From assembly GCA_041287335.1 (NCBI GenBank), contig JBEULM010000022.1, forward strand, positions 1 through 59,733: a DNA stretch of 59,733 nt, in the 5' to 3' direction. Below the pieces are notes generated by a model that did not search any database, was not told where the DNA came from, and saw nothing but the letters and a program-made list of their open reading frames with translations. A program made the position numbers and the translations under genes. Position 1 is the stretch's first letter, and each line of letters begins with the position of its first letter. Source of the stretch: Hydrogenobacter sp. Its GTDB lineage: Bacteria; Aquificota; Aquificia; Aquificales; Aquificaceae. This document shows, piece after piece, positions 4,853 through 33,032 of this stretch.

Positions 4853-6025
4853 ATGGTTAAGGAGACATTAGATCAGAAGGAGCTACAGTTTCAGTTTGCC
4901 AAAAGATACTTTGAAGAGTTCATTGCCAAAAGGGAAAGTATTTCCTCCTACCTTAGACCAAAGGAGACTCCTTTACTCGTTATGGATCTTGACGGGATAA
5001 GGGAAAGATACGCAAATATAGAAAGGCATATGCCCAACTTCAGGATATACTATGCTGTAAAGGCAAACGATGATATAAACATAATAAAGACTTTAGCTCA
5101 AAGGGGTTCAGGCTTTGAGGTAGCTTCTTGTGAAGAACTCAAAAAAGTTCTGAGTGCACAAGTACAGCCTGAGAGGATCATATCAAGCAATCCTATAAAG
5201 CCTGAGGAGTTTATAGATTACGCCTATTCAGTAGGTGTAAATCGCTTTTCTGTTGATTCTTTTACTGAGGTGGAAAAGATAGCTAAGGTAGCAAATAGGG
5301 CCAGGGTTTATGTAAGGCTCGCTGTTCCTAACGAAGGTAGTGACTGGCCACTATCTAAAAAGTTCGGTGTTGATGTGGATACTGCACTTGAGATTCTTGA
5401 GTATGCAAGAGAAAAAGGGCTAGTACCTTACGGTATTACCTTCCACGTAGGCTCTCAGTGTAACAATTACAGGAACTGGTTTATAGCCATAAGGAAGTCA
5501 GCCGAACTATGGGAAAAGGCGAGGTATAGAGGTTTCAGGCTTCAGATGCTCAACGTAGGCGGTGGTATACCAGTCAAATATACTTACGAAGCGCTAAGGA
5601 TAGAGGATATAGCTTACTACATAAAGGGTCTTTTGCAAAAATTTTTCCCCAATCCACCTCACGAGCTACAGATAGAACCAGGTAGAGGGCTCGTAGGTGA
5701 CCAAGGTATTATGATAACGAGGATCATAGGCAAGGCAAAGAGAAACGACGAAAATTGGCTGTACATAGATGTTGGGGTATTCAACGGTTTGGCTGAAGCT
5801 CTCGGGGGCATAAGGTATCCCTTTTACTTAGAGAGGGAAGGAGAGCTAAAAGAGTGGATCGTGGGAGGTGTGTCCTGTGACAGCATGGATGTGATCGCCA
5901 GGATGGTAGCTCTTCCAGAACCACAGGTAGGAGACTACCTTTATATTCTCTCAACGGGTGCGTATACAACCGTCTACGCTTCAAACTTCAACGGTTTTCC
6001 GAAACCTAAGATAGTGTATTTGTGA
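4853..6025 (+). CDS. Ornithine decarboxylase-like type III PLP enzyme
   Basis: A fold-type III PLP decarboxylase of the ornithine/diaminopimelate decarboxylase superfamily. The PLP lysine is in YYAVKAN (about residue 65), the glycine loop is LNVGGGIP, the phosphate-binding EPGR is present, and the active-site cysteine block reads SCDSMD. The C-terminal GAYTTVYASNFNGF resembles ornithine decarboxylase rather than lysA, which has a second, clear copy elsewhere in the window. The likely role is polyamine synthesis, though related lysine or arginine specificities cannot be excluded. An in-frame GTG at 4826 would add nine residues; neither start has a Shine-Dalgarno sequence. The 3' end overlaps the PilT-like gene on the other strand by 20 bases. 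Confidence 0.82.
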   Translation: MVKETLDQKELQFQFAKRYFEEFIAKRESISSYLRPKETPLLVMDLDGIRERYANIERHMPNFRIYYAVKANDDINIIKTLAQRGSGFEVASCEELKKVLSAQVQPERIISSNPIKPEEFIDYAYSVGVNRFSVDSFTEVEKIAKVANRARVYVRLAVPNEGSDWPLSKKFGVDVDTALEILEYAREKGLVPYGITFHVGSQCNNYRNWFIAIRKSAELWEKARYRGFRLQMLNVGGGIPVKYTYEALRIEDIAYYIKGLLQKFFPNPPHELQIEPGRGLVGDQGIMITRIIGKAKRNDENWLYIDVGVFNGLAEALGGIRYPFYLEREGELKEWIVGGVSCDSMDVIARMVALPEPQVGDYLYILSTGAYTTVYASNFNGFPKPKIVYL

Positions 6026-6845
6026 TAATCACGTGAAGTTTTTCCTCTGGGGCTTGTTCCACTTTTATAACAGCTTTGACAATTCTTTTGTGCTTTTCAA
6101 AGCTCTTAAATACAGCCTCCTCATTCATGTAAGGAGAGTAAAATATTACTAAGGTGTTGAGTTGTGCCACCTTAACTATGTGAAATACATCTTCATCAGG
6201 TAGGATCTCTCCGTATGCAACGTATACTATATCGGGATTTATATAAGCTACATCCTTCAAGCCTTCCTCAAATGTCGGCGTATCTATGCCTACCTCTCTC
6301 TGTATTATTACAGACTTGTCGTGCCTCAAAAGGAAGGAAAGAGGTTTTTCAAGGATAAGTATGACTTTTTGATAGTTTCTGGATACGTACTGAAGGGCTG
6401 AATATACGAAAGTGCTTACCCTTACAGGATTTGTGCCAAACACAAGTAGTATACCACAAAAGTGTATTCTTACAAGCTGATCCAGATGCTGAACAGTTTT
6501 TGGATCGCTACACAACTTCTCTAAGGATGGTACCTCATAGGGTGTCTTTACTATTTTTACCACATAACTACCCCTTTGGGTTATGTAACTCACTCTCAAC
6601 CTTCCTACGTTATGTATTCCAAAAGAAAAGGTACCTTCGCTACCTAAAGGTCCTAAGGTGGGAGAGGTATAACTTCTCAAAGCCAAAAGTGTATCCCTTA
6701 CATCTTCAGAAGTAAGCACAGCATCCATAATTCTAATAAGCTTCCCATTTTTCCTATCAAGGGGCGGAGCCTTAGGAACGAGGTATATCTCCGTTATGTC
6801 AGGTGTGCCACTTATGTAGCTCAGGATCTGGGATACATAATTCAT
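6006..6845 (-). CDS. PilT-like protein with degenerate Walker A motif
   Basis: The 279-residue product aligns by eye with twitching-motility ATPases of the PilT/PilU group. It has the N-terminal PAS-like segment (APPLDRKNGKL, LTSEDVRDTLL), a core ending QREVGIDTPTF that matches the PilT QREVGRDT block, and PDIVYVAYGEI where PilT has its Walker B. However, the nucleotide-binding loop that should read GxxxxGK(S/T) is FGTNPVRVST (residues 136-145), with no glycine-lysine pair. PilT is about 340-370 residues, so the C-terminal part is also shortened. It is therefore probably not an active ATPase and may be a regulatory paralogue or a decaying gene; the intact reading frame argues against a simple pseudogene. 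Confidence 0.7.
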   Translation of the reverse strand: MNYVSQILSYISGTPDITEIYLVPKAPPLDRKNGKLIRIMDAVLTSEDVRDTLLALRSYTSPTLGPLGSEGTFSFGIHNVGRLRVSYITQRGSYVVKIVKTPYEVPSLEKLCSDPKTVQHLDQLVRIHFCGILLVFGTNPVRVSTFVYSALQYVSRNYQKVILILEKPLSFLLRHDKSVIIQREVGIDTPTFEEGLKDVAYINPDIVYVAYGEILPDEDVFHIVKVAQLNTLVIFYSPYMNEEAVFKSFEKHKRIVKAVIKVEQAPEEKLHVIITNTLS

Positions 6846-6922: not shown

Positions 6923-7960
6923 ATGGCGGTAAAGGACATAATAGATGCACTAAAAGGCATAAGCATAGATAATACCAAGCTTTCGGATCTCATAAAGGAT
7001 ATTAAACTCATAGGTTCATCTCTTGAAGTGGTGTATAGACTTCCCAAAAAGGGTTTAGAAGAGGATATAAAGCAAAAAACGTACCAAGCCCTTGAGAGTG
7101 TGCCGGATGTAAAAAGTGTAAATATAAGGTTCATAGAGGGATCACCAGAACCTCCAACTGCCTTTGGACAGCCTGCCTTTACAAGAAGGCGAGTTGAAGG
7201 CGTTAAATACCTAATCGCAGTTGGCAGTGGAAAGGGTGGTGTTGGTAAATCAACCGTTGCTGCCAACTTGGCTGTAGCTCTTTTAAAGTCCGGTTACAGG
7301 GTTGGTCTCTTGGATGCGGACATATATGGTCCGAGCGTACCTACTCTTTTGGGCGTAAAGGGGGAGAGAATACATGTTGACGAAAGAAACAGGTTAATAC
7401 CTGTGGAAAAGTACGGTTTGAAGGTACTTTCAATAGGCTTTTTGCTTCCCTCCGAAGACACACCTGTCATCTGGAGAGGTCCCATGCTTATGAAGGCTCT
7501 CACCCAATTTCTCTTTGATGTGAATTGGGGAGAGCTTGATTTTCTAATATTGGACCTTCCACCCGGTACGGGAGATGTCCAGCTTACCCTCGCTCAAAAC
7601 GTTCACATGACTGGAGCGATTATCGTTACCACACCTCAGGATGTAGCCTTAGCCGATGTAAAAAAGGCAACAGCCATGTTTAAAGAAGTTGATGTACCTG
7701 TACTTGGTGTGATAGAAAACATGGCATATTTTGTATGTCCAGAAAGCGGTAAAAAATACTACGTGTTTGGTAAAGGTAAAGTCATGGAATTTGCAAGGGC
7801 TTATAACCTTCAGGTACTCGGTTCCATCCCCATGGATCCGGAGGTGGCTGAAACTTCCGACGTTGGTATGCCTGTGACACTTGCTCATCCGGAGTCAGAG
7901 GTATCCAAAGCGTTCTTTAGTATAGCCAAACTTATATCTGAGAGAATTTTAAGGAGGTAA
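6923..7960 (+). CDS. apbC: Mrp/ApbC-type iron-sulfur cluster carrier ATPase
   Basis: A 345-residue MRP-family P-loop protein (also called Mrp or NBP35-like) that carries and delivers [4Fe-4S] clusters. An N-terminal MIP18/DUF59-like domain (residues 1-85) precedes the ATPase core. The deviant Walker A GKGGVGKST is near residue 103, DADIYGPSVP is the switch I block and DLPPGTGD the Walker B region. The cluster-binding cysteine remains as the single FVCPESG; the usual CxxC is reduced to one cysteine, which is a departure from many homologues. A GGAGG ribosome-binding site precedes the ATG. The NifS-like gene starts 3 bases after its stop, so the two are one operon. Confidence 0.93.
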   Translation: MAVKDIIDALKGISIDNTKLSDLIKDIKLIGSSLEVVYRLPKKGLEEDIKQKTYQALESVPDVKSVNIRFIEGSPEPPTAFGQPAFTRRRVEGVKYLIAVGSGKGGVGKSTVAANLAVALLKSGYRVGLLDADIYGPSVPTLLGVKGERIHVDERNRLIPVEKYGLKVLSIGFLLPSEDTPVIWRGPMLMKALTQFLFDVNWGELDFLILDLPPGTGDVQLTLAQNVHMTGAIIVTTPQDVALADVKKATAMFKEVDVPVLGVIENMAYFVCPESGKKYYVFGKGKVMEFARAYNLQVLGSIPMDPEVAETSDVGMPVTLAHPESEVSKAFFSIAKLISERILRR

Positions 7961-7963
7961 GGT

Positions 7964-9184
7964 ATGTTTATAAAAAAGGTAGGTCAAAGGGTTGTTTATC
8001 TGGATCACATAGCTACTACGCCGGTTGCGCAGGAAGTTCTGGAGGCTATGCTTCCCTACTTTAGGGAGCACTTCGGAAATCCCACATCTCTGCACAGTTT
8101 TGGTCAAGTTACAAAAAAAGCCATAAACTCAGCGAGAGAAAAAATAGCTACCCTCATAAACGCTAACTCTCCTGAAGAGTTGATCTTCACTTCTGGCGGT
8201 ATAGAGGCTAACAATCTGGCGATAAAAGGTATAGCGGAAGCGTATGAGAAAAAAGGTAGACATATAGTTTCAACAGAGATAGAGCATCACTCCATACTTC
8301 ACCCTCTCAAAACTCTGGAAAGAAAAGGCTGGGAAGTTACCTACCTAAAGCCAGATAGGTATGGTCTAATACATCCAGATCAGGTCAGTGAGGCAGTAAG
8401 GCAGGATACTGTCCTTGTGAGCATAGGTCATTCAAACAGGGAGGTAGGTACCATTCAAGACATAAAAGGCTTGGTTCAGGCTGCAAAGGCAAAGAATCCC
8501 AAGGTTATATTCCATACAGATGCCGCACCAACGTTAGGTCACTACCCAGTTGATGTAAAAGATTGGGGTGTGGATGCCGCATCTTTCACCGCACACCTCA
8601 TGTATGGACCTAAAGGTGTGGGCGCTCTGTGGACCAAGAAGGGTGTCAAGATAAGACCTCTCATAGAAGGTGGCACTCAAGAAAGGGGGGTAAGAGCGGG
8701 AACGGAAAATGTACCGGGCATTGTGGGTTTTGGTGCTGCAGCTGAACTCACTATAAAGGAGATTCAGGACAGGATGACGAGACTCTCTCATTACAGAGAT
8801 AAGCTCAGAAAAGCTCTTGAGGAAAGGCTTGATTATATAGAGTTTACTGGACATCCCACTCAGAGGCTACCTCATCACCTTTCGCTTATAGTACATCTGA
8901 TTGAAGGTGAAGCTATGCTTTTGAGACTTGATCTCATGGGGATAGAAACTGCTTCCGGTTCCGCATGTGTTTCTCTCGCTCTTAAACAATCCCACGTGCT
9001 TTTTGCCATAGGTGTACCAAAAGAGGTGGCTAACGGTTCTCTGGTCTTTAGCTTTGGCAGAGACAACACCGAGGAAGATGTGGATTATGTTATAGAGGAG
9101 TTTCCCAAGATCATAAAGCTTCTCAGGCAGATATCACCCTTCACCCCGGAAAACTGGGAGCAATACGTAAAGAGTAAGAAGTGA
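7964..9184 (+). CDS. NifS/IscS-like protein lacking the PLP lysine
   Basis: A 406-residue class V aminotransferase-fold protein closely resembling group I cysteine desulfurases, which normally pull sulfur from cysteine for Fe-S and thio-cofactor synthesis. Conserved blocks are TSGGIEANNLAIKG, STEIEHHSILHP, HTDA (Asp186), GGTQERGVRAGTEN and the persulfide loop SGSACVS (Cys335). The PLP Schiff-base lysine is missing: the usual SxHKxYGPKG is TAHLMYGPKG, with Leu212 encoded by CTC at 8597-8599. The glutamine that normally follows the Asp (DAxQ) is Pro189. Classical desulfurase chemistry therefore looks impossible, while the persulfide cysteine is retained. It directly follows the Mrp-type carrier gene, suggesting a role in sulfur or cluster handling. 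Confidence 0.85.
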   Translation: MFIKKVGQRVVYLDHIATTPVAQEVLEAMLPYFREHFGNPTSLHSFGQVTKKAINSAREKIATLINANSPEELIFTSGGIEANNLAIKGIAEAYEKKGRHIVSTEIEHHSILHPLKTLERKGWEVTYLKPDRYGLIHPDQVSEAVRQDTVLVSIGHSNREVGTIQDIKGLVQAAKAKNPKVIFHTDAAPTLGHYPVDVKDWGVDAASFTAHLMYGPKGVGALWTKKGVKIRPLIEGGTQERGVRAGTENVPGIVGFGAAAELTIKEIQDRMTRLSHYRDKLRKALEERLDYIEFTGHPTQRLPHHLSLIVHLIEGEAMLLRLDLMGIETASGSACVSLALKQSHVLFAIGVPKEVANGSLVFSFGRDNTEEDVDYVIEEFPKIIKLLRQISPFTPENWEQYVKSKK

Positions 9185-21363: not shown

Positions 21364-21650
21364 ATTTTAAATCCTAGATAAAAACCGCCTAAAAAAGCAC
21401 TTGAGAAAGCTACCTGCCTTACGATTCCGTGAATAAAACTGCCGAAGCTCTCAAACATGCCTTTAAATACGTCCAGAAAGGCAAACCAATGTATATCTAT
21501 AACTCCCTTGCTTTTTAACCAAAGTAGAGAAAGCACATAAAGACCCAAAAGCATAAGAAATATGTTAAGTACTCTCCTTACCGCAAAGCCTATAACAAAG
21601 CCGGCAAATCCTCCATAACCTAAATCAGCCACTAAACTTTCTGCATTCAT
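21360..21650 (-). CDS. FUN14-family membrane protein
   Basis: A 96-residue membrane protein with the FUN14 pattern: a glycine-rich first segment (GYGGFAGFVIGFAVRR), a hydrophobic helix (VLNIFLMLLGLYVLSLLWL) and a final glycine-rich helix (VAFSSAFLGGFYLGFKM). Bacterial members have no clear role. It overlaps lipS2 and the DUF309 gene by 4 bases each, so translation is coupled along this stretch. Confidence 0.85.
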   Translation of the reverse strand: MNAESLVADLGYGGFAGFVIGFAVRRVLNIFLMLLGLYVLSLLWLKSKGVIDIHWFAFLDVFKGMFESFGSFIHGIVRQVAFSSAFLGGFYLGFKM

Positions 21651-22762
21651 TGGTATCTAAAAACGCTCGGATTTAGTATATCTGGGTAATTGGTAAGCAT
21701 TTCGTAATCAAAAAGCTGTTTCCTTATCCTTTGAAGATCACTCCTTTCAGGCTTGAAGGGATAACTCTTTATATCGGTAACTGAACTATCACCGAAGGGT
21801 CTGTTACAAGCAACTTCCGTTGTCTTTCCTCTGCATCCTGAGGTCATAAAGGGTCTTCCACTCCAAAAGAGTTCTTCAAAGGTGTCATTGTCTATACCAA
21901 AGTCTATGACTTGACCCTTCTCGTTGAACTTCATGTCCTCATAGCGGGCGATCTGGTTGTCTATAAGATACCTTGCAAACTGGACTCTCCTGTATTGGGG
22001 TGCGGGGCAGGGCTTTTCCTTTTCCATCATAGAACCTTCCTCGGGCCAAAAGGAGAAAAGATGCGTTCTTGCTCCAAGGTCTCTAACCTTCTGTATAGTT
22101 TCTATCATTTCTTGCTCCGTCTCTCCAAGACCTACCACCAAATGACAACCCGCATATCCATCACCCATTACCTTACAAGCCCACTCAAGCACCTTCCAAA
22201 AAGTTTCCCACCTATGAGGGCTGTTCATGGGTCTTCCACGCAGTTTTTCAAAAACCTCCGGTGTAGCACAGTCTATAGCAATGGTAACCGTGTCTGCACC
22301 CAGCTTTTTGTAGTCCTCCATGTCTTCATAGGTAGTGCCGGTGGCATTTATAAGCAAAGAGACAAATATCTGGTCTCCAAGATCAGAAAGAACCCTTTTT
22401 AACACATACTTTGTGTCTCTTATTGCTCTTGGGTGGGTTATCTGAGCTATACAGAGCCTTTCCACATGCCCTACCTTCTTCGCCCTTCCTATGATTTCAT
22501 CCAACTTTACTGTAGGCCACTCAACCCTTATGAAGTTCTTTTTTGAGTATTCCATGTCCCTTGCCTTTTGAAGACCACAGTAAGCACACGTAGCATGACA
22601 TCCAGATGGGTAAGTAAGAAGCGTATTTATACAGCTAAGGCGTGTATTTCTATAAAATTGCCCAGGTACTATTCCCAGAGTCATGGCCGCTGCCATACTT
22701 ATTTGCAAATACTCAGGACTTTCTTTTTGTTCTGTCAAGTTTTCAAGCAAAATCTTATTCAT
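21647..22762 (-). CDS. lipS2: Radical SAM lipoate synthase subunit (LipS2-like)
   Basis: A 371-residue radical SAM protein. The cluster motif CHATCAYCG (CxxxCxxC) is near residue 55, and further downstream the protein keeps VVGLGETEQE and a cysteine-bearing C-terminal region (SGCRGKTTEVACNRP). The pairing with the other radical SAM gene (23370-24374) beside lipoate-binding proteins and sHdr genes matches the two-protein lipoate synthase LipS1/LipS2 known from archaea and sulfur oxidisers, which inserts both sulfurs into octanoyl groups. Which of the two is LipS1 and which LipS2 is my best guess. It overlaps rdgB by 4 bases. Confidence 0.75.
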   Translation of the reverse strand: MNKILLENLTEQKESPEYLQISMAAAMTLGIVPGQFYRNTRLSCINTLLTYPSGCHATCAYCGLQKARDMEYSKKNFIRVEWPTVKLDEIIGRAKKVGHVERLCIAQITHPRAIRDTKYVLKRVLSDLGDQIFVSLLINATGTTYEDMEDYKKLGADTVTIAIDCATPEVFEKLRGRPMNSPHRWETFWKVLEWACKVMGDGYAGCHLVVGLGETEQEMIETIQKVRDLGARTHLFSFWPEEGSMMEKEKPCPAPQYRRVQFARYLIDNQIARYEDMKFNEKGQVIDFGIDNDTFEELFWSGRPFMTSGCRGKTTEVACNRPFGDSSVTDIKSYPFKPERSDLQRIRKQLFDYEMLTNYPDILNPSVFRYQ

Positions 22763-23373
22763 GTTAGACCTCCATTTTTTATTATACTCATAAGATTTCT
22801 GACAGCCTTTCCTCTGTGGGATAATAAATCCTTCTCTTCAGGAGTTAGCTCAGCCATGCTTTTTTCTGAACCTTCTGGTTGAAAAATGGGATCGTAACCA
22901 AATCCTCCCGATCCTTTGGGTTCTGTCAGAATAACTCCATTGCATTCACCCTTTGACCAATATCCGCTATAGCCTAAGTTAAGTACCAAAAAGGCTACAA
23001 AAGTTGCTCTTCTATCTTTTACCTCCTTCATGAGTCTCAAAACTTTTCTTATATTCGCATCATCTTTCGTAGCGATTACCTCTTCCTTTCCCCCATACTC
23101 GTGAGAATAAAATCTGCTTGAGAAAATTCCAGGATATCCACCAAGAGCTGGTACCACAAGTCCCGAATCATCAGCAAGTGTAGGTTTGCGGTATCTTTCC
23201 CAATAAGCTTGTGCCTTCAAATAAGCATTCTCTAAAAAGCTGGAACTTCCCTCCTCAATTCGCAGATCCTCATCAGGTACTTCCGCATCAATACCGTAGA
23301 AACCCAAAAGCCTTTTCATCTCTTTCACTTTGCCGGCGTTCGTAGTAGCCAAAAGAACCTTCTTTAACTTCAT
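22759..23373 (-). CDS. rdgB: dITP/XTP pyrophosphatase (RdgB/HAM1 family)
   Basis: A 204-residue house-cleaning enzyme that hydrolyses non-canonical purine nucleoside triphosphates. Motifs are the N-terminal LLATTNAGKVKEM, TLADDSGLVVPALGGYPGIFSSRF, and the C-terminal GGFGYDPIFQPEGSEKSMAELTPEEK and SHRGKAV. I place the start at 23373, nine codons into the longest frame, because that ATG overlaps the lipS1 stop as ATGA. It lies between the two lipoate synthase genes and is coupled to both. Confidence 0.95.
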   Translation of the reverse strand: MKLKKVLLATTNAGKVKEMKRLLGFYGIDAEVPDEDLRIEEGSSSFLENAYLKAQAYWERYRKPTLADDSGLVVPALGGYPGIFSSRFYSHEYGGKEEVIATKDDANIRKVLRLMKEVKDRRATFVAFLVLNLGYSGYWSKGECNGVILTEPKGSGGFGYDPIFQPEGSEKSMAELTPEEKDLLSHRGKAVRNLMSIIKNGGLT

Positions 23374-24374
23374 TGAAACATGAATACTGTAGAGCAGCAA
23401 TTTTGAGAAATTACAGGTTTAAGTCCCATACTCCTTGCGTAGGAAAAAACCCCTTCCGCAGGGAAGGTTATACCGTTAACCCCCGCATAAAGCGCATATA
23501 TATCCAGCTTCACCCTGTCTTCACCAGCTGGACGTGCACATCCTATTACCACATGAGTTGTGGGTAGCTTCTTTCTTGCATAAAGAATCACCTTTGCGCT
23601 TTCTTCAGCTTTGGGAGGGGGGAGCAACTGAAACTTAGCCTTTCCGTAATAAGGCATTATTACGACAAGCACAAGGGCTGAAGGTTCAAAACCCGATATT
23701 ATGTCTATGGCTCTGTATTCGCCCAGTATCTTTCCGTAATGTAAACCTATGATGACGTGTGGAACCACGTTATGGTTGTGCTCTTTAAGATGTTTAAGAG
23801 ACATTTCGTAATCTTTTACACCTTTGTGTGGCATCTTATAGACTTCTGCTACCGTCCTGTCATCACCTATAATATCAAGAAGTACAGCGTCAACCCCCGC
23901 TTCCTTTAAACCTAAAGCGAGCCTTTGGTCTACTAAACCCACATGACATGTAACAAGCATACCAAGTTCTTCTTTGAGATACTTCATTGCCTTCAAATAA
24001 GGCAATAGTTCTACTACTCCATCTTTGTTTGATCCGCCCGAGATAAGAATACCATCTATACCCTTCTTTTTTAGCTCTTGTCCCACCTTCACAAGTTCCT
24101 CGGGAGTAGTTGCAGGTATCATATGCCACAGGATCTTGGATGCACAGTGATCGCACATAAGTTCACACTGCCTTCCCGTTATAGATACATCAACAAACTT
24201 AGGAGCCGAATCTACTTTAAAGTCATCAACTTCATAATGCTTAAAACCCGGGCTATGGAAGTAAATGGTATTTCCAAAATTCCTCTTTCTTATCTCAAAG
24301 CCTTCGTAAAGCTCCTCAAGGAGGGTGCCATCCAGTATAACACCCTCCCAAGAAGCACCGTCTATCAACCGCAC
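23370..24374 (-). CDS. lipS1: Radical SAM lipoate synthase subunit (LipS1-like)
   Basis: A 334-residue radical SAM protein with the cluster motif CELMCDHC (CxxxCxxC) near residue 69, after an N-terminal region FKHYEVDDFKV. Later blocks are GILISGGSNKDG, TCHVGLVD, AVLLDIIGD and HVIIGLHYG, giving a full TIM-barrel SAM domain. The C-terminal QNCCSTVFM has two adjacent cysteines. Its start overlaps the end of lbpA1 by 10 bases. With the partner gene at 21647-22762 it should build lipoyl groups on the LbpA proteins for sHdr. The LipS1/LipS2 naming of the pair is tentative, the assignment as a pair less so. Confidence 0.75.
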   Translation of the reverse strand: MRLIDGASWEGVILDGTLLEELYEGFEIRKRNFGNTIYFHSPGFKHYEVDDFKVDSAPKFVDVSITGRQCELMCDHCASKILWHMIPATTPEELVKVGQELKKKGIDGILISGGSNKDGVVELLPYLKAMKYLKEELGMLVTCHVGLVDQRLALGLKEAGVDAVLLDIIGDDRTVAEVYKMPHKGVKDYEMSLKHLKEHNHNVVPHVIIGLHYGKILGEYRAIDIISGFEPSALVLVVIMPYYGKAKFQLLPPPKAEESAKVILYARKKLPTTHVVIGCARPAGEDRVKLDIYALYAGVNGITFPAEGVFSYARSMGLKPVISQNCCSTVFMFQ

Positions 24375-24811
24375 TTTATACCCTTCTCGTTTATGACTTT
24401 AGTAAGCGCATCAACAGCTGACTGCCCTTTGAGTAACTGGTTTACTTCCTCAGGATTTGAAGGTTTAATCTTAGCTATCCATCCTGCACCGTAAGGATCA
24501 TCATTGACTAAAGCGGGATTTCCTTTCAGCGTTTCATTTATCTCTATTATTTCACCGCTCAGCGGAGAGGGGACAGGTCCTACCCATTTACCGCTCTCAA
24601 TTGTAGCCACGCTTTTGCGTCTTTCCACGCTTTTGCCTACCTTTTTGGGAGTGTAGGCAACCAACCTGCCTGCCATGGCTGTTGCCACAGAAGTCAGCCC
24701 TATGGTGAAGGTTCCATCACCGTTATCCTTCGCCCATGTGAAGGCATTCGCCTCCGGATCAACGTCATAAAGCAGCTCCTCGGGTATGTTACACCCATTA
24801 ACTAAAGCCAT
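24365..24811 (-). CDS. lbpA1: Lipoate-binding protein LbpA (GcvH-like), copy 1
   Basis: A 148-residue GcvH-like lipoyl carrier. The lipoylated lysine is expected in TIESGKWVGPV (near residue 78), flanked by GLTSVATAMAGRL and the downstream NDDPYGAGWIAKIKPS that is shared with glycine-cleavage H proteins. In sHdr organisms such proteins do not serve glycine cleavage but carry the sulfur intermediate for the sHdr complex. A second copy lies 0.7 kb upstream in the operon. A GGAGGTAAG-type ribosome-binding site precedes the start. Confidence 0.88.
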   Translation of the reverse strand: MALVNGCNIPEELLYDVDPEANAFTWAKDNGDGTFTIGLTSVATAMAGRLVAYTPKKVGKSVERRKSVATIESGKWVGPVPSPLSGEIIEINETLKGNPALVNDDPYGAGWIAKIKPSNPEEVNQLLKGQSAVDALTKVINEKGIKCG

Positions 24812-24837
24812 ATCACTTACCTCCCGTATATAAAATT

Positions 24838-25227
24838 TTAAAAGGTTAGCACTTTATCGGCTTCCATAGCTCTGAGAGCAAATTCACTTGCTGGAACCAC
24901 ACCGTCAAGCTCCTTAATGAGGTCCTCCTCTGTGAGTCCCAGCGAGTCTACAGCTTGCTTGCATGAATAGAACTTGACCCCAGCCTGTTTTGCATCCTTC
25001 ATAAAATCATAAACGGTTTTTGGCTTTTTACCGTTAGGTGATAGGCAGTTTGGTTCAGCTGGTACTATTCTTTGTGCCACACCTTTCCTTAGCAAGTTAG
25101 TACCGTCCATATTGAAAAATATCTCAACATCTGCCTCATTAGAAGCCATAAGTGCCGCTATGTAAAAGGGTGCGGCACATCTCCACGGGGTTTTAGGTCC
25201 GCTCGTCATCAAAATGATCACCTTCAT
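24838..25227 (-). CDS. DsrE-family sulfur carrier protein
   Basis: A 129-residue cytoplasmic DsrE-fold protein: strand KVIILMTSGP, helix PFYIAALMASNEADVEIFFNMDG, and the conserved cysteine in GVKFYSCKQAVDSLGL. It resembles the DsrE3-type carriers that accompany sHdr genes. Other cysteines lie at CAAPF and NCLSP. Its start overlaps the mini-thioredoxin gene by 4 bases and lbpA1 follows after 26 bases. It is expected to receive or donate sulfane sulfur on the cysteine; the exact partner is not visible. Confidence 0.82.
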   Translation of the reverse strand: MKVIILMTSGPKTPWRCAAPFYIAALMASNEADVEIFFNMDGTNLLRKGVAQRIVPAEPNCLSPNGKKPKTVYDFMKDAKQAGVKFYSCKQAVDSLGLTEEDLIKELDGVVPASEFALRAMEADKVLTF

Positions 25228-25481
25228 GATTCTAACACCTTCCTGGCTTCCGCCTCATCAGGTACCCCTACGAAGGTAAGCTTGCCATCTATTATGGTGG
25301 AAGGTACCGACCTCACTATGAGCTTTTTTGCCCACATCTTACCTTCCGGCTGAGCAACATCAAGTACATCATACTTAAATCCATACTCACTCTGGAGCTT
25401 TCTCCAGAGCATATCAGCATCAGGACAAGTCGCACACCACTGAGACACTAAAAGTATTACATGCTTGTCCTTTGCACCCAT
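25224..25481 (-). CDS. Minimal thioredoxin-fold protein with CATC motif
   Basis: An 85-residue thioredoxin-fold protein with VSQWCATCPDAD as its redox motif (CATC rather than CGPC), a cis-proline region VPSTIIDG and a short C-terminal helix. It is shorter than a classic thioredoxin and closer to glutaredoxin-size proteins. The start at 25481 gives a TGATG overlap with lbpA2; an upstream GTG-type frame extension of ten codons exists but is unlikely. Lying between lbpA2 and a dsrE gene, it may reduce or transfer persulfides or lipoyl disulfides for the sHdr pathway; this is inference. Confidence 0.82.
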   Translation of the reverse strand: MGAKDKHVILLVSQWCATCPDADMLWRKLQSEYGFKYDVLDVAQPEGKMWAKKLIVRSVPSTIIDGKLTFVGVPDEAEARKVLES

Positions 25482-25963
25482 CACGTGCACCTCATACAAA
25501 CTATGTCCCATTCGTCTATATACTTCCTCATTTCTTCAATAGCTTTCTGACCGCTGACTAAATCTTTAATGTCTCTCTCCAGATTGGTGGGTTTTAACCT
25601 TGCCACCCAACCCTCTCCATAGGGGTCATAGTTTATTATATCAGGTTGTTCAAGTACCTTCTCGTTTCTTTCTATTACTTCACCTTCTATTACCGCATTG
25701 ATAGGTCCAGCCCATTTGCCACTTTCAAGGGAAGCGACTGGCTTCCCCTTCTTTATAAGCTTTCCAGGCTCTTTTATCCTGGCATGCAACAATCTGCCTG
25801 CCCTTACCTGCCCCACATCCGTCAGTCCCATGGTAACTGTCCCATCTTCATTTATCTTAAACCACGTTTGTGTTTCTATATCGTAATATAAATCAAGGGG
25901 TACAACGCATCCGTTGTACTCCCATTCGTTACTTTCCTTTTCAGGAAGCCCTCCTAATGCCAT
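25481..25963 (-). CDS. lbpA2: Lipoate-binding protein LbpA (GcvH-like), copy 2
   Basis: A 160-residue GcvH-like protein. The lipoyl-lysine motif is SLESGKWAGPINAV, preceded by GLTDVGQVRAGRLL and followed by NYDPYGEGWVARLKP. It differs from copy 1 in a longer N-terminus and in a C-terminal CMRC pair, which copy 1 lacks (it ends in a single cysteine). It follows hdrB2 by 8 bases, the position where lbpA is found in many sHdr loci, so it is the likelier main partner of the complex. Confidence 0.9.
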   Translation of the reverse strand: MALGGLPEKESNEWEYNGCVVPLDLYYDIETQTWFKINEDGTVTMGLTDVGQVRAGRLLHARIKEPGKLIKKGKPVASLESGKWAGPINAVIEGEVIERNEKVLEQPDIINYDPYGEGWVARLKPTNLERDIKDLVSGQKAIEEMRKYIDEWDIVCMRCT

Positions 25964-25971
25964 TCCACCTC

Positions 25972-26931
25972 CTAAGCGAGACCTAATCTCTTGAGTACGG
26001 GAAGAGGATCAGAGAGATTATCTTTCAGTTTTACATCGTTGGCACTGTATCCGAAAGCTAACCCAAGAAGCTGAGTAAAGTACGCAGCAGGCACGTCCAC
26101 GTCGGGTACTCCCTTCATCATGAGTCTATGTCTATACATTTCAACGGAAGCGTGGCACAGAGGACACTCTGTAGCTATTATGTCAGCACCGTTCCTTTTT
26201 GCGGTCTGAAGTATCATCATCACGAACTTCTCAGAAACCATTTCGTCCGAAAGTGAGTGAGGTCCTCCACAGCATTGAGTGTGCATAGGTTCAAATTCTA
26301 CATTTGTAGCTCCGGCAGCTTCAAGTAAAGCATTCATATAGTAAGGATGTTCGTCATCATCCGCTGTGTCTCTCTTTCTGGGTCTTACCTCTTCTTCTTG
26401 TCCTCCTGCGTGAGCATAAGTCCTCGCATAAAAGTGGGGTCTTGTGTAAAGACAGCCATAATAATTAGCCACTTTTAATCCCCTCAAAGGTCTTTTCGTC
26501 TTCTCCTTTACTTTTTGAGGTCCCGCTTCGTGATAGAGCCATTCAAGTAAGTGGTAGGTGTGGGGTATCCTGTCAAGGGGATCAACTCCACCCTCTCTCA
26601 AAAGCGCATTCACCTTTTCATAAACGCTTCTATCTGTTTCCAAAAAGTATTCAGCTCTTTGAAGTGAGAAAGAACAACCGTTACACGGCGCTATTATAAC
26701 TTCATGTCCCTGTTTTCTTGCCAAGGACATATTCCTCGCATTCAAGAGCATAGTTCCCATAAAAGTCACGTTCTTGGATTCCATAGCACCACAGCAGTTG
26801 TAATCCTCAAGATAGTCAAGCTCAAGACCAAGTTCCCTGGCAACGATCCTCGTTGAAACATCATAAGCCCGTGATGCACCTTCCAAAGAGCATCCGGGAT
26901 AATAGGCTACTCTTTTACCTATCACACCCAT
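25972..26931 (-). CDS. hdrB2: sHdr subunit HdrB2 (CCG-domain)
   Basis: A 319-residue heterodisulfide-reductase-like B subunit with two CCG domains. The first has GCSLEG, NCCGAMES and APCNGC; the second has YGCLYTRPH, CCGGPHSLS and CPLCH. Such domains bind non-cubane [4Fe-4S] clusters that act on disulfides. It ends the conserved C1-B1-A-hyp-C2-B2 order of the sulfur-oxidising sHdr complex. It follows hdrC2 by 12 bases with an AAGGAGG ribosome-binding site. Confidence 0.93.
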   Translation of the reverse strand: MGVIGKRVAYYPGCSLEGASRAYDVSTRIVARELGLELDYLEDYNCCGAMESKNVTFMGTMLLNARNMSLARKQGHEVIIAPCNGCSFSLQRAEYFLETDRSVYEKVNALLREGGVDPLDRIPHTYHLLEWLYHEAGPQKVKEKTKRPLRGLKVANYYGCLYTRPHFYARTYAHAGGQEEEVRPRKRDTADDDEHPYYMNALLEAAGATNVEFEPMHTQCCGGPHSLSDEMVSEKFVMMILQTAKRNGADIIATECPLCHASVEMYRHRLMMKGVPDVDVPAAYFTQLLGLAFGYSANDVKLKDNLSDPLPVLKRLGLA

Positions 26932-26943
26932 TTTTTAACCTCC

Positions 26944-27705
26944 TTAATGCGCTAATGCTCCTTCTTCTTCCATAACTTTCCTGAGAACCTGCTTGAACCT
27001 GTTCCAGTTTTTAGTTCTTGGATGGAACAGCATATGTTTTGCGTTAAGCATGAGAAAACCTATATTCATGGACTTTATTGGTTTTAATGTAAGCTGTTTG
27101 AGCCATTCTGGTGTTTCTCCTACGAAGGGTATAGGTTTTTTGAGTATGGGATCTTTCACCACCTTGTAACCTTGCTTTTCTATCCACCCAAAGAGAAGCT
27201 CTCCATCCTCTATCCTTCCATACTCAAGTACCTGTTCAGTAAAGAACTTGTCAAACTTCTTGGATGGATACTCCTCAATGAGACCCTTCTTTGCCATAGT
27301 TCTCAGGATAACTTTTAAGACTTCTTCCACAAGTACGCCTTTGGGACATCTATGTGTACACTTATGACATGACACGCATCGCCACATAACGTCCGCACGC
27401 TTTTGTAGTTCGTCTATCATACCTAATCTTGCAAGGTATATGAAGTGTCTGGGGTTATACCTCTCATCCCAGTAATTGTGTACGGGACATGATGCTGTGC
27501 AGTAGGAACATTGATAACATTGGTTGATCGTTTTACCATCCGGAGAGTTTATTATCTCATTGGCAAAGTCAAGGTCATAATCGTTTATAACCCTTGGGAG
27601 TATTATAAGATTCCAATCCCCAGATACATCTATACCTTCAACTACAAGCCTTTCCTTCCTTAAAATTCTCTCCGGTTCTACAAGACTTCTTTCATGTATA
27701 GCCAT
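26944..27705 (-). CDS. hdrC2: sHdr subunit HdrC2 (two [4Fe-4S] clusters)
   Basis: A 253-residue HdrC-type iron-sulfur protein. Two ferredoxin motifs, CYQCSYCTASCP (near residue 82) and CVSCHKCTHRCP (near residue 115), bind two [4Fe-4S] clusters. A long C-terminal helical part follows. It should relay electrons between HdrB2 and HdrA. The gene follows the hyp gene by 3 bases. Confidence 0.93.
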   Translation of the reverse strand: MAIHERSLVEPERILRKERLVVEGIDVSGDWNLIILPRVINDYDLDFANEIINSPDGKTINQCYQCSYCTASCPVHNYWDERYNPRHFIYLARLGMIDELQKRADVMWRCVSCHKCTHRCPKGVLVEEVLKVILRTMAKKGLIEEYPSKKFDKFFTEQVLEYGRIEDGELLFGWIEKQGYKVVKDPILKKPIPFVGETPEWLKQLTLKPIKSMNIGFLMLNAKHMLFHPRTKNWNRFKQVLRKVMEEEGALAH

Positions 27706-27708
27706 ACC

Positions 27709-28455
27709 TTACACCTCCAAAAGGTCCTCTTTTCTTATAATGCCTAAAAGCCTCCTCGCCATTATGCCTGCGGGCGGGAAAAATCCTTTTGCGCTGTGCA
27801 TAGTGGAAAGGGTCATGTAGTCTACATAAGTGGCATATATCATGGCGAGGAATATGTCAACAAAAAGGTATCCCTTCACCTTTATACCAAAATCCGTTAA
27901 CTTTTCCTGTATCTGTTTGTATATGCTTTCAAACTCTTCGTAAGTTTCTCCATACATGCTCTTTTTTGGAGGTTCTTCTTTGAGGAAAACAACAGCACCA
28001 CTTTCGCTTTCTGGATCCCATATCCATCCAGTCCATAGGACATATTCTTCCGGAAAAGTAAAGTGGAGTATTTCGCTGGCTATATCCCTGGCAGAACTTT
28101 TGTCCACGCCTCTTATTTCCCTAACAAACCTTTCCACTCTCTCCTCCCAAGAGCCTGCCTTTCCATAGAGTAAGTCACTTATAGCCTTTTTTAATCTGTC
28201 AACACCCGTTTCTTCTATGATCTTTTTCCTCTTCCTTCTGCTCGCAAAGATCCTCTCAAGTATAGCGTTTAGTTCCTCTTCCGTGAGGGAAGGAAGCCTC
28301 TCTTTGCTCAAAAGTTGCTGAAAGAGGAGGGATTTGGCGAGAAGATCTTTATAAAGCTCTTGTACGAACTCCTCGCCTTCACCCAGTAACTTTATGAGGT
28401 AATCCCTAACTAAAAAATCGTCAAGAGTTGTGCCTTTGAATCTTTTCTCCATCAT
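27709..28455 (-). CDS. sHdr locus conserved hypothetical (Hyp)
   Basis: A 248-residue cytoplasmic protein, here in the position of the conserved hyp gene between hdrA and hdrC2 in sulfur-oxidising sHdr loci. It is mostly helical and charged in the first half, with no cysteine motif and no membrane segment. Segments such as ILHFTFPEEYVLWTGWIWDPESESGAVVFL may form a folded core. It overlaps hdrA by 4 bases (ATGA). The literature reports it as part of the locus but its function is not established. Confidence 0.85.
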   Translation of the reverse strand: MMEKRFKGTTLDDFLVRDYLIKLLGEGEEFVQELYKDLLAKSLLFQQLLSKERLPSLTEEELNAILERIFASRRKRKKIIEETGVDRLKKAISDLLYGKAGSWEERVERFVREIRGVDKSSARDIASEILHFTFPEEYVLWTGWIWDPESESGAVVFLKEEPPKKSMYGETYEEFESIYKQIQEKLTDFGIKVKGYLFVDIFLAMIYATYVDYMTLSTMHSAKGFFPPAGIMARRLLGIIRKEDLLEV

Positions 28456-29510
28456 ACACTAACCTTAGCTCCAAGAAAAGCTGCAGCTTCAGCTGCCGCC
28501 GCTTCACCTTCAGACAGTGAAGATTCTATGTCTATGGGACCTTTACAGGCACCTGCTATAAAGACACCCGGTTTGTTGGATATTATGTTAGAGCCAGATT
28601 CCTCCGAAGGTATGAGAAACTGACTGTCTGGGTCTTGCGAAAGTCCTAATATTTTTGCTACTTTCTTGGTGCCTTCTGAAGGCTCCATTCCAAGAACGAG
28701 AACAACCAGATCCATTGGTACTTCTGCTGGTCTTTGAACTATTGTATCTTCGTGCTTTACCCTTAATCTTCCGTCAGCGGGACTGTATGTGATCTCCGCT
28801 ATCCTACCTCTCACATATCTGACACCGTATTTCTCCTGAGGTGCCCAGTAAAATGGGTATTCCCATGTGCCGTATGTCCTCACATCCATGTAGTAACAAA
28901 AAACGTCCACATCTGGATAATGCTCCCTTATTTCAGAGCCTTGAAGACCAGAAAGGGCACATCCGTATCTACAGCAGTGTACGTTGGTAACACCAAGTTG
29001 TCTGTCCCTTGATCCTACACAGAAGACAAAGGCTACCCTCTTAGGAAGCTGTCCGTTGGAAGGTCTGTAAAGTTTTCCCTCTCTGGCAAACATCTGCTCA
29101 AGTTCAAGGTTTGTTATCACATCAGGATAAAGTCCATAACCAAGCTCTCCTTTTCTTCTTGCGTCAAAGTGCTGAAACCCAGTAGCAACTACTATAGCCG
29201 CCACTTCATGAGTCTCGCCATTAGAAAGTCTCACTTTAAAGTTTCCCGGTTCCCCTTCGCAAGCTTCAAGTTCTGTTTTGAACTTGATCTGTACATTAGG
29301 GTTCTCTTCTACCTCCCTGATGTACGGACCCAATACCTGACTGGGTTTTAGCCTTCTGGGGATGAGTGTGTGGTAGTCCTCCAGTATGGGTCTACCGCCT
29401 AACTTTTCCTCCTTTTCAACGAGGATGGTAGGCACGCCAAGCCTACCGAGTACCCTCGCTGCACCAAGACCCGCCGGTCCACCACCGACCACTAACACGC
29501 TCTTAGCCAT
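28452..29510 (-). CDS. hdrA: sHdr subunit HdrA (flavoprotein)
   Basis: A 352-residue HdrA-like flavoprotein. The FAD site is VVGGGPAGLGAARVL at the N-terminus with ILVEKEEKLGGR, and a second nucleotide-binding part (IVVATGFQHFD) follows. A cysteine set FCVGSRD, HCCRYGC can bind the [4Fe-4S] cluster of HdrA. It lacks the N- and C-terminal extra domains of methanogen HdrA, as expected for the short sHdr form. The start at 29510 is preferred over a TTG five codons earlier because GAGGAGG lies 8 bases upstream. Confidence 0.93.
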   Translation of the reverse strand: MAKSVLVVGGGPAGLGAARVLGRLGVPTILVEKEEKLGGRPILEDYHTLIPRRLKPSQVLGPYIREVEENPNVQIKFKTELEACEGEPGNFKVRLSNGETHEVAAIVVATGFQHFDARRKGELGYGLYPDVITNLELEQMFAREGKLYRPSNGQLPKRVAFVFCVGSRDRQLGVTNVHCCRYGCALSGLQGSEIREHYPDVDVFCYYMDVRTYGTWEYPFYWAPQEKYGVRYVRGRIAEITYSPADGRLRVKHEDTIVQRPAEVPMDLVVLVLGMEPSEGTKKVAKILGLSQDPDSQFLIPSEESGSNIISNKPGVFIAGACKGPIDIESSLSEGEAAAAEAAAFLGAKVSV

Positions 29511-29530
29511 GAAAGACCTCCTCAATTTAT

Positions 29531-30874
29531 TTAAGACTTAAACAGTGGCATAGCCGCAGTTGCTGAAGCTTTCGGTTTACCGGTAGATGTTCTGCTGTAA
29601 GGCTCATACAAGTCATAGGTCTTGAAGAACTCCATAAGCTCATCGTACTTTCCAGCCTTTTCAAGTTCAGCTATGTACTTGACATCCTCTTCCCACTCTT
29701 TTTTGAGTTCTCTCCAGTTGGTTATACCCATCTTCTCAAGGAGAGGCTCATAAGCTGAGCAGTTCCAGTAAAGTTGAACAACTTTGAAGGGATGCGCGCC
29801 GCATGCAAGAGCTGAGAACATTACATCAGACATAACTGCAACCGGATAATACATGCCATGTGCTTTTCCTATCCATTGGTTTTTCTCAAAGGTTGTAGTG
29901 CAACCAGTGTCGTGAGTGATTATTACGTCGGCTTTTACCTCTTCATATATAACCTTCAGCTTCCTTTGTATCGCAAAGGATCTTGTAAATTCTCTTTCCG
30001 TTAGTATATGTCTGAAACCAAATCCGCAGCAATCAAACCATGTGGAGTAATCCACCACTTGAGCGCCGAGAGCCTTTATTACAGCAGTAGATGCAGCAGG
30101 TCTTTGACCGTTAAACACTTCTGGGTCATAAGGATAGTCATCAGCTATCATCTTGTATGTATGGCAAGCGTTGTGTATGGCGACTCTTACGTTGGATACA
30201 TCTATGCCCTTAGCTTTCCCTTCTTTCTCGTAAAGTTCTTTGATCTTATATCTCATGGCGTGTACCCATTCGGAATAGTGGACAACTTCCTGAGGTATTA
30301 CTATCCTTCCGTCTTCTGTGAGCCTTCCCAGCTTTTTGAGGATGGGCTTTACAGCATCCCTGAGTTCCTTATTCATTATGAGCTGTTCCCTGGTTTCCTT
30401 ATAAGAGCCGAAAGATGTACCACAGTGTATTAGTGGATAGTATCCTGTCTTCCAAGCTTGATGCATATTTCTGAGCCAAACAGCTGCCAAAGCTACGGGA
30501 TTGGAAGTACCAGATCCGTGATAATTCCATGCGGTACAGGAGGTCTGATGAGGCTCATTCAGATAATCAAGACCGAACTTGTTCATTAGCCAAAAGACAG
30601 ACGCAGGGTATCCGGGTATATTACCGCATTGACCGCAAGATTTGTGATGCCAGAGCTTGTTGGTGGGAATGACCTTTATTCTACCAGTTCTTGTGTACAC
30701 ATGCACCGGCTGGTTTTCTTCCGTTATCCTGTGTATGAGTATTTCTCCTTTAGCCTCTAACTCTTCCATCATCTCAAAGATGTGGTCATAGTGAGCGTGA
30801 TACTCTTTGAGGGGAAAGGGTGGCTTCTCGGGGTACATAAGGATGCTTCCCTCTTTATGATGTCCGTGTGCCAT
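29531..30874 (-). CDS. hdrB1: sHdr subunit HdrB1 (CCG-domain)
   Basis: A 447-residue heterodisulfide-reductase-like B subunit, larger than HdrB2 because of N- and C-terminal extensions. Cysteine blocks include SCGQCGN, TSCTAWN, ACHTYK, FDCCGFGFRH and DTGCTTTF, the usual CCG-domain arrangement with altered spacing. A His-rich start (AHGHHKEG) is present. The ATG at 30874 is preceded by AAGGAGGTG at ideal distance; a GTG three codons upstream is rejected. It is the second gene of the hdrC1-B1-A unit. Confidence 0.92.
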   Translation of the reverse strand: MAHGHHKEGSILMYPEKPPFPLKEYHAHYDHIFEMMEELEAKGEILIHRITEENQPVHVYTRTGRIKVIPTNKLWHHKSCGQCGNIPGYPASVFWLMNKFGLDYLNEPHQTSCTAWNYHGSGTSNPVALAAVWLRNMHQAWKTGYYPLIHCGTSFGSYKETREQLIMNKELRDAVKPILKKLGRLTEDGRIVIPQEVVHYSEWVHAMRYKIKELYEKEGKAKGIDVSNVRVAIHNACHTYKMIADDYPYDPEVFNGQRPAASTAVIKALGAQVVDYSTWFDCCGFGFRHILTEREFTRSFAIQRKLKVIYEEVKADVIITHDTGCTTTFEKNQWIGKAHGMYYPVAVMSDVMFSALACGAHPFKVVQLYWNCSAYEPLLEKMGITNWRELKKEWEEDVKYIAELEKAGKYDELMEFFKTYDLYEPYSRTSTGKPKASATAAMPLFKS

Positions 30875-30922
30875 GATTAACACCTCCTTAAAGTTTTTTG
30901 GGTATCAAACCCGTTCATAAGC

Positions 30923-31648
30923 TTACTCTTCTTCATACATCTCAGCGTATCTCTCTTCGTTTTCTTCTACTATATCCATTATGACGTTGTAAAGGTTCGG
31001 GTCTAACTTTTCAAGCATCTCAAAGATCCCCGTTTCTCTCCATATGGTATACATCTCTATAGCGGTTTCCAGAGATACTTCCCAAGCTGTTTTAACAGAT
31101 TTACCCACATCAAAAGGTATAGCCATCCTCTTTGCTCTGAGGTTTTCCATATTATCCGCCATCTTGGGACCCCAGTCTGGGAAGAAGTCAGGCTGAAGCA
31201 TATCAGCCGATAGCTGGTTTCCTGTTGTCATAACTTTGAGAAGAACCCTTCCGTAAGGCTTGAGAAGGTCTTTCGTTGCCTCAAAAGCGTTTCTTACCGC
31301 TACTTCTCTCATTATGGCAACAAGACCACCTGGGTTGTTCACAAAAGGACAGCGGATCCAACAGGTAAAGCACTGAGAACAAGCCCATATGTATTCGTGC
31401 ATCATATCGTAGAGGACTTCCACATCCTCCTCAAGAAACCTCTGAACTATCTCACGCGGAGAGTAATCAAAGAACCTGTTGGAGGGACAAGATGCGGTGC
31501 ACACACCGCAGTTGAGACAGCCAAAAATATACTCTTTAAAGCGAAAGTCTGATTTTACTTCCTCAATAACTCTGACCTTTTCCTCCCACGGTACGCTTTT
31601 TGTCTTCTCTGATATGGGGAGGTTGTATCCGTATATATGTCCATCCAT
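30923..31648 (-). CDS. hdrC1: sHdr subunit HdrC1 (two [4Fe-4S] clusters)
   Basis: A 241-residue HdrC-type protein. Cluster motifs are CLNCGVCTASCP and CSQCFTCWIRCP, each binding one [4Fe-4S] cluster. The start at 31648 has AAGGAGGTAAAAGCT immediately upstream; the longer frame to 31696 is rejected for that reason. It heads the hdrC1-B1-A-hyp-C2-B2 unit. The 122 bases between it and the upstream dsrE gene hold a palindrome and may carry a separate promoter. Confidence 0.93.
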   Translation of the reverse strand: MDGHIYGYNLPISEKTKSVPWEEKVRVIEEVKSDFRFKEYIFGCLNCGVCTASCPSNRFFDYSPREIVQRFLEEDVEVLYDMMHEYIWACSQCFTCWIRCPFVNNPGGLVAIMREVAVRNAFEATKDLLKPYGRVLLKVMTTGNQLSADMLQPDFFPDWGPKMADNMENLRAKRMAIPFDVGKSVKTAWEVSLETAIEMYTIWRETGIFEMLEKLDPNLYNVIMDIVEENEERYAEMYEEE

Positions 31649-31728
31649 AGCTTTTACCTCCTTAAGCAGTTCTACATAAAAAGATAAAGAGACCACACTT
31701 CAAGTCAATTAATTTTTGCTTATGGATA

Positions 31729-31746
31729 TATAAGTATATACTTATA
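31729..31746. repeat. 18-base perfect palindrome ahead of hdrC1
   Basis: TATAAGTAT-ATACTTATA without spacer, 81 bases upstream of the hdrC1 ATG. It is AT-only apart from one G and one C, so it is not a terminator. Its position upstream of the sHdr genes makes it a candidate operator. No sHdr regulator gene is visible in the window. Confidence 0.45.
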
Positions 31747-31770
31747 ATACCCTTACAAAAGAGGGGGAGA

Positions 31771-32196
31771 TCAAAGGGTGATAACAGCATATTCACCGCT
31801 CATAAGCTTATCAAGAAAAGCAGCACCGCCTATTATTCCGTCACAAAGTTCAGGATTTACGTCCTCTTTTTTGTATATTTCCGTAAGATCAAGGGAGGGT
31901 ACACAGAGGTATATCTTTACACCCGCCTCCTTTGCCATCTTTATAAAGTCATAAACGGTTTGTTCAACACCAGGTCTAACCTTAACCTTTTTTGCGTTAT
32001 CTCTCATAAGAAGAAAGCCAGCCTCGGAAGTTATGACCATTTCTACTTCGTAATCCATGGTGGTGGCAGCGGTAGCGAGGAAAAAGGGAGCACCAGCTTG
32101 CGGATTTATAAGTTCACCGGTAGCCGGTTCGGCCCTCTCAAAGAAAGGAACAGTAAGGATGTAAAATATCAGCTTTTCGTAACCTTGAGCAGCCAT
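31771..32196 (-). CDS. DsrE-family protein of the tusA-dsrE2 set
   Basis: A 141-residue DsrE-fold protein: first strand KLIFYILTVP, a helix GAPFFLATAATTMDYEVEMVITSE, and the conserved cysteine in GVKIYLCVPSLDLTEI. It follows dsrE2 by 11 bases in the order tusA-dsrE2-dsrE. DsrE proteins bind sulfane sulfur on a cysteine or act as scaffolds; together with TusA this one probably hands sulfur to the sHdr complex. Confidence 0.85.
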   Translation of the reverse strand: MAAQGYEKLIFYILTVPFFERAEPATGELINPQAGAPFFLATAATTMDYEVEMVITSEAGFLLMRDNAKKVKVRPGVEQTVYDFIKMAKEAGVKIYLCVPSLDLTEIYKKEDVNPELCDGIIGGAAFLDKLMSGEYAVITL

Positions 32197-32207
32197 ATTT
32201 ATCCTCC

Positions 32208-32741: not shown

Positions 32742-32753
32742 AGCTTTCCCTCC

Positions 32754-32990: not shown

Positions 32991-33032
32991 AATAAACACC
33001 TCCTACATGTTTAAATATATAGCAATAAGCAT

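Follow-up and report, generated by a model that had tools for sequence, protein, structure and literature searches.

The iscS* locus

The window, i.e. the whole stretch of 59,733 nucleotides of Hydrogenobacter sp. DNA that was analysed, harbours a homologue of the cysteine desulfurases IscS and NifS, here termed iscS*. IscS* was aligned with E. coli IscS (from NC_000913), and residues marked as E. coli follow the numbering of that protein. The following features were assigned in the window:

6923..7960, plus strand: mrp/apbC, P-loop NTPase Fe-S carrier, 3 bp 5' of iscS* and likely co-transcribed with it
7964..9184, plus strand: iscS*, Lys-less IscS/NifS homologue (pseudo-desulfurase) of 406 aa, from ORF and translation
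8201..8203, plus strand: Ile80 for E. coli Thr76 (PLP phosphate side), Ile in 70/70 orthologues
8438..8440, plus strand: Arg159 for E. coli Asn155 (substrate pocket), Arg in 70/70 orthologues
8528..8530, plus strand: Pro189 (CCA) for E. coli Gln183 (PLP phenolate oxygen), Pro in 54/70 and Ala in 16/70 orthologues
8597..8599, plus strand: Leu212 (CTC) at the position of the PLP Schiff-base lysine (E. coli Lys206), from alignment
8966..8968, plus strand: Cys335 (TGT), equivalent to E. coli Cys328, the persulfide/ligand cysteine, in ASGSACVS, Cys in 70/70 orthologues
9044..9046, plus strand: Val361 for E. coli Arg354 (binds the substrate carboxylate), Val in 70/70 orthologues
9122..9181, plus strand: C-terminal LRxxSPFxPENWExYVKxx, equivalent to the IscU-binding helix of IscS, from alignment (interface according to PMC2854127)

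In the translation of the ORF (7964-9184, plus strand), part of IscS* reads ...DAAPTLGHYPVDVKDWGVDAASFTAHLMYGPKG.... Profile searches assign the protein to Aminotran_5 of Pfam (1e-81) and to the NifS/IscS models of NCBIfam (1e-142 to 1e-113), in the latter case under the equivalog cut-offs; the best NCBIfam model, NifS, yields 474 bits compared to a cut-off of 531 bits. The AF2 model of IscS* displays the Type I fold, with TM values of 0.85-0.95 to NifS/IscS structures, and loop 332-341 has a pLDDT below 50, in keeping with a flexible Cys loop.

The minus strand at 6006-6845 of the window encodes a diverged PilT-like ATPase in which Walker A is erased (GTNPVRVS where GPTGSGKS is expected). It gives no Pfam match, yet it is kept beside mrp-iscS* in many Aquificaceae and, as judged by its motifs, is a second dead enzyme adjoining these genes.

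Loss of the desulfurase active site

Residues were counted in 70 full-length orthologues, 50 from Aquificaceae (f1) and 20 from the nearest sister family (f2), which is probably Hydrogenothermaceae; both are families of hot-spring bacteria. The sequence-only reading had placed Leu212 at the PLP lysine site and had proposed to examine whether this change is conserved in a clade. Leu212 does align with E. coli Lys206, and the position is occupied by Leu in 50/50 Aquificaceae (CTC or CTT) and by Tyr in 20/20 f2 orthologues, while a partial Aquificaceae copy (L023) carries Phe. Likewise, Pro189 and Cys335 align with E. coli Gln183 and Cys328, confirming the claimed loss of a conserved glutamine and retention of the persulfide cysteine. 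The assertion that the substrate and phosphate-side blocks remain, however, did not stand up, as the exchanges at Thr76, Asn155 and Arg354 are each fixed in all 70 orthologues. Invariant in the same set are His104, Asp180, His205 and Thr243 (E. coli numbering) together with the Cys loop.

A replacement Schiff-base lysine near Leu212 was not found in the alignment; the next lysines are Lys217 (in GPKG) and Lys226, both of which are common to Lys-bearing enzymes. Measured against group I desulfurases, IscS* thus lacks the PLP lysine as well as Thr76, Asn155, Gln183 and Arg354. E. coli IscS is reported to be left with little or no activity when any of His104, Asp180, Gln183, Lys206 and Cys328 is mutated (PMC9978102). 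Given the loss of PLP- and substrate-binding residues and these mutant data, IscS* should not be a normal desulfurase. Going by its sequence, it is unable to form an internal aldimine, and the annotation of iscS* as 'cysteine desulfurase' across both families is probably wrong in functional terms.

One of the Aquificaceae orthologues originates from Aquifex (genome G001, presumably Aquifex aeolicus VF5) and is 83% identical to the IscS* studied here. The same Aquifex protein is 405/405 identical to PDB 9WFY, which belongs to a set of seven entries named 'cysteine desulfurase' (9WFY, 9WFE, 9WFB, 9WF8, 9WEW, 9WER and 9WEP). The six others carry 2, 3, 4, 5, 6 and 9 changes toward canonical residues, in the order R159N + L212K, then V361R, P189Q, I80T and I16A, and finally G155M, A188V and T209S. 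This series appears to be an attempt to restore activity. Hence, from 9WFY and the six step-wise active-site variants, others have noticed the dead active site. Literature searches returned no paper describing these entries and nothing on an Aquificota pseudo-IscS, and the entries were not among the top 50 Foldseek PDB matches (PDB copy to April 2026).

Distribution, selection and origin

In a phylum-wide search of 136 genomes, an iscS* orthologue was detected in nearly all f1 and f2 genomes and was not found in families f3-f5. Pairwise dN/dS within and near the genus amounts to 0.011-0.034, values that are only approximate since synonymous sites are saturated. To judge from the aligned orthologues, strong purifying selection evidently maintains the fold of IscS* along with its Cys335 loop and C-terminal docking helix.

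In an ML tree, a branch supported at 100/100 separates the Lys-less proteins, including a highly diverged Lys-less paralogue, from the others. IscS of A. fulgidus, in turn, groups with E. coli IscS, and its joining the Lys-less clade is rejected with p-AU 0.0125, a tentative result in that the archaeal side of the tree consists of this one long-branch sequence. Tree and AU test therefore suggest that the lysine was probably lost a single time ahead of the divergence of f1 and f2, and independently in Archaeoglobus, which disfavours a common origin of iscS* with A. fulgidus IscS.

An Aquificaceae-type iscS* locus, 88% identical, is also present in RFFP01000016.1 (L009), which is titled 'Acidobacteria bacterium isolate J001' and is probably a mislabelled MAG.

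Desulfurases and scaffolds in the genomes

Within the phylum, IscU (PF01592) is confined to f1 and f2, where 98 genomes have it, and the SUF scaffold (PF01458) to 29 genomes of f3-f5; the two distributions do not overlap, a pattern that is confounded with phylogeny. The Hydrogenobacter genome (99.98% complete) contains one IscU and one A-type carrier; neither a SUF scaffold nor HscB was found in it. Family f1 also includes G033 (genus g4, 99% complete), in which IscU is present and IscS* or any NifS-like gene was undetected; this absence may reflect an assembly gap or a true loss.

The sequence-only reading had further recommended searching for a second, intact desulfurase. Among the eight strongest of its 10 PF00266 matches (the remaining two score under the family cut-off), no Lys-bearing desulfurase is recognisable in this genome, and the sole other NifS-like gene (contig C47) is Lys-less too. 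This gene (L103, 1678-2769, minus strand, 364 aa) reads DSLSLLGPLG at the site and is very diverged; it adjoins apparent aldehyde:ferredoxin oxidoreductase and homocitrate-synthase family genes, and similar copies are present in G028, G035 and G050. As to the other candidates, C47:40381, C18, C23, C40 and C63 look like GcvPB, DegT-type aminotransferase, aspartate aminotransferase, BioF/KBL-type and GcvPA, and C46:11512 is a class-V aminotransferase without Cys loop. A non-homologous or unrecognised C-S lyase may nevertheless be present.

Among 42 high-quality Aquificaceae genomes, 6 possess a Lys-type copy and 36 do not, with iscS* and iscU in 35 of these 36; a canonical desulfurase is apparently absent in most Aquificaceae. 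Lys-type desulfurases are also present in most f2 genomes. In view of these copies, found in most f2 and in at least 6 high-quality Aquificaceae genomes, the pathway need not be desulfurase-free everywhere. The Lys-bearing NifS-like copies found in some Aquificota, however, are without the C-terminal segment for IscU binding (13/13), so they are not obvious substitute partners of IscU. For SufS-type desulfurases, nothing above cut-off was obtained in the 136 genomes, and a clear SufS-like match was seen only in genome G126.

Gene neighbourhood and the IscU partner

That iscS* adjoins an Fe-S carrier gene had been recognised from the window itself, and the arrangement is a general one: iscS* stands directly 3' of mrp/apbC in 41/41 stretches examined. 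In f2, it is followed by iscU, the PP-loop gene, tusA, nfu and aroE in 14/20 stretches. In Aquificaceae, the set is split into two loci, mrp-iscS* and iscU-PPloop-tusA-DUF1858-nfu-aroE, the second of which is located in the present genome as follows:

contig C30, 8106-11160: iscU-PPloop-tusA-DUF1858-nfu-aroE block
contig C30, 8121-8489: IscU

The PP-loop gene stands between iscU and tusA in both families. Its product (L150, 8573-9613, plus strand) combines a ThiI/MnmA-like HUP domain with a C-terminal NFACT-R_2 and is probably a tRNA-thiolation-like enzyme.

The window also contains, at 21647-33000, a gene cluster for sulfur oxidation of the sHdr/LbpA type, which includes DsrE-like proteins and, at 32760-32990 on the minus strand, a TusA match. 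More than 12 kb separate it from iscS*, to which it is unlinked in relatives. A role of iscS* tied to this cluster was hence discarded, the conserved linkage being to mrp and iscU instead.

The IscU-docking surface, as defined by the E. coli IscS-IscU complex (PMC2854127), is kept in IscS* at Glu309-Glu311, Leu380-Arg381, Ser384-Pro385, Trp387 and Tyr/Phe390 (E. coli numbering). In E. coli, deletion of IscS 376-404 abolishes IscU binding (PMC2854127). IscU, for its part, retains Cys37, Asp39, Cys63, His105, Cys106 and the docking residue Lys103 in 37/37 sequences. Positions that dock TusA in E. coli are changed in IscS* (W45 to Q/V/I, E49 to K, D52 mostly to N). Since the two genes are linked in operons and co-occur, and since the docking helix is retained, the partner of IscS* is most likely IscU rather than an unspecified acceptor of sulfur oxidation.

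Possible function of IscS*

Sulfur entry into bacterial Fe-S clusters is commonly regarded as depending universally on cysteine desulfurase. Against this background, the explanation we favour, with moderate confidence, is that IscS* is a catalytically dead IscS acting as structural partner of IscU in desulfurase-independent Fe-S assembly. The earlier proposal of a repurposed desulfurase thereby survives in part: a conserved and selected derivative keeping the cysteine is found, its partner can be sharpened to IscU, and the suggested link to sulfur oxidation falls away with the position of the sHdr genes outside the conserved neighbourhood. Mechanistically, an IscS* dimer would bind two IscU, and the flexible loop would bring Cys335 to the IscU site, where it would transiently ligate iron or the nascent [2Fe-2S] cluster, by analogy with the crystal structure of A. 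fulgidus IscS-IscU. The sulfur source, again by analogy, would be sulfide instead of cysteine; the finished cluster would pass from IscU to Mrp, Nfu and the A-type carrier, and Arg159 and Val361 might remodel or plug the empty PLP pocket.

Precedents for such chemistry exist: without IscS, E. coli can assemble clusters anaerobically on IscU using H2S (PMC13015791), and in Methanococcus maripaludis the sulfur comes from sulfide and not from cysteine (PMC7585200, PMC10500019). With the catalytic residues lost but the cysteine and the docking site kept, the f1 and f2 bacteria probably build their Fe-S clusters from a sulfur source other than cysteine via IscS, and arrival of sulfur at IscU as sulfide or relayed persulfide is the best reading. 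Points against the favoured explanation are the separate loci of mrp-iscS* and the iscU block in Aquificaceae, the Lys-type copies of most f2 and some Aquificaceae genomes, G033 with IscU but undetected IscS*, and the tusA gene of the conserved block, which suits a relay of persulfide no less than a route by sulfide.

In both families, tusA shares its block with the PP-loop gene and iscU, which makes such a relay, a more specific form of the persulfide carrier suggested in the sequence-only reading, the main rival. Here, Cys335 would take sulfane sulfur, fed by external thiosulfate, sulfur or sulfide, from TusA, DsrE or rhodanese and hand it to IscU or the PP-loop protein, so that IscS* would serve as a hub without desulfurase chemistry. 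The invariant Cys loop and the sHdr, DsrE and TusA sulfur-transfer genes of the organism (window 21.6-33.0 kb) are in line with this, but the E. coli TusA-docking residues are not kept, which a cognate TusA may compensate, and the A. fulgidus route is simpler in that it requires no persulfide. Overall, we regard the relay as rather unlikely. Less probable still is residual or unusual enzymology, with PLP bound non-covalently for weak desulfurase or another PLP reaction, or with a different ligand near Arg159. The invariance of His104, Asp180, His205 and Thr243 would suit such an activity, E. coli IscS K206A is reported to turn over very slowly (PMC9978102), and the new pocket residues are themselves fixed, suggesting a positive role. 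With the Thr at the phosphate, the Gln at the ring, the Arg for the carboxylate and the Asn for the substrate all gone, however, binding of PLP and cysteine is unlikely, and even the smallest engineered PDB variant already has two changes.

Decay into a functionless paralogue, to which the loss of several catalytic residues might point, is contradicted by a dN/dS of about 0.01-0.03, a near-universal presence in two families, 97-63% identity kept and fixed adjacency to mrp, and deserves practically no credence. Equally negligible is a canonical desulfurase misread through a sequencing or assembly error at 8597-8599, for conservation of Leu, Phe or Tyr in every orthologue from many independent assemblies excludes such an error, as the alignment does a shifted Schiff-base lysine (two of the objections raised in the sequence-only reading itself), and the Aquifex orthologue with the same change is represented by PDB 9WFY.

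If IscS* is the dead structural partner of IscU, a broader but tentative proposal follows, which we are slightly more inclined to doubt than to accept: most Aquificaceae might make all of their Fe-S clusters and thiolated tRNAs without cysteine desulfurase, on an IscU held by a pseudo-desulfurase from the common f1/f2 ancestor. Should this be true, a culturable bacterial lineage would offer a model for sulfide-fed cluster assembly. Dead desulfurase homologues tied to IscU would, moreover, separate the role of IscS as scaffold partner from its enzymatic role.

Comparison with known IscS systems

E. coli IscS and human NFS1 share with IscS* the fold, the Cys loop, the IscU-docking helix and the partner IscU. 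In contrast to both, IscS* has neither the PLP lysine nor Thr76, Asn155, Gln183 and Arg354, and its genome is without HscB. The MIS system (MisS-MisU) and M. acetivorans IscS1 resemble IscS* as two-component IscS-IscU sets without the full ISC accessory set, and Methanosarcina acetivorans IscS1 is also devoid of the lysine (PMC7585200). An equivalent pairing of IscS and IscU homologues without HscB is found here, with both genes adjacent in 14/20 f2 stretches. Unlike MIS, IscS* is bacterial and linked to mrp, PP-loop, tusA and nfu genes, with IscU as the only Fe-S scaffold found in f1/f2.

The closest likeness is to A. fulgidus IscS (IscS2; PDB 4EB5, 4EB7, 4HVK, 4R5F). According to PMC7585200 and PMC9769115, this protein (Lys to Asp) has no desulfurase activity and, in the IscS-IscU crystal structure, its Cys is a ligand to the IscU [2Fe-2S] cluster; PMC7585200 cites Marinoni 2012, Yamanaka 2013 and Pagnier 2014 for this. 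Both proteins have the Type I fold at ~42% identity (TM 0.87-0.95 to the IscS* model), have lost the PLP lysine, keep the cysteine loop and are partnered with IscU, the IscU site being kept in IscS* and IscU being encoded in its genome. The Gln and the substrate Arg are also lost in A. fulgidus (Ser, Leu), as in IscS*. The exchanges differ in that A. fulgidus has Lys to Asp and His to Asn, whereas IscS* has Lys to Leu/Tyr, His kept, Asn to Arg and Thr to Ile. Common descent is not borne out (p-AU 0.0125, tentative with one archaeal sequence). By every other sequence criterion tested, IscS* matches A. fulgidus IscS, and it would hence represent a new, bacterial counterpart of this inactive type of IscS.
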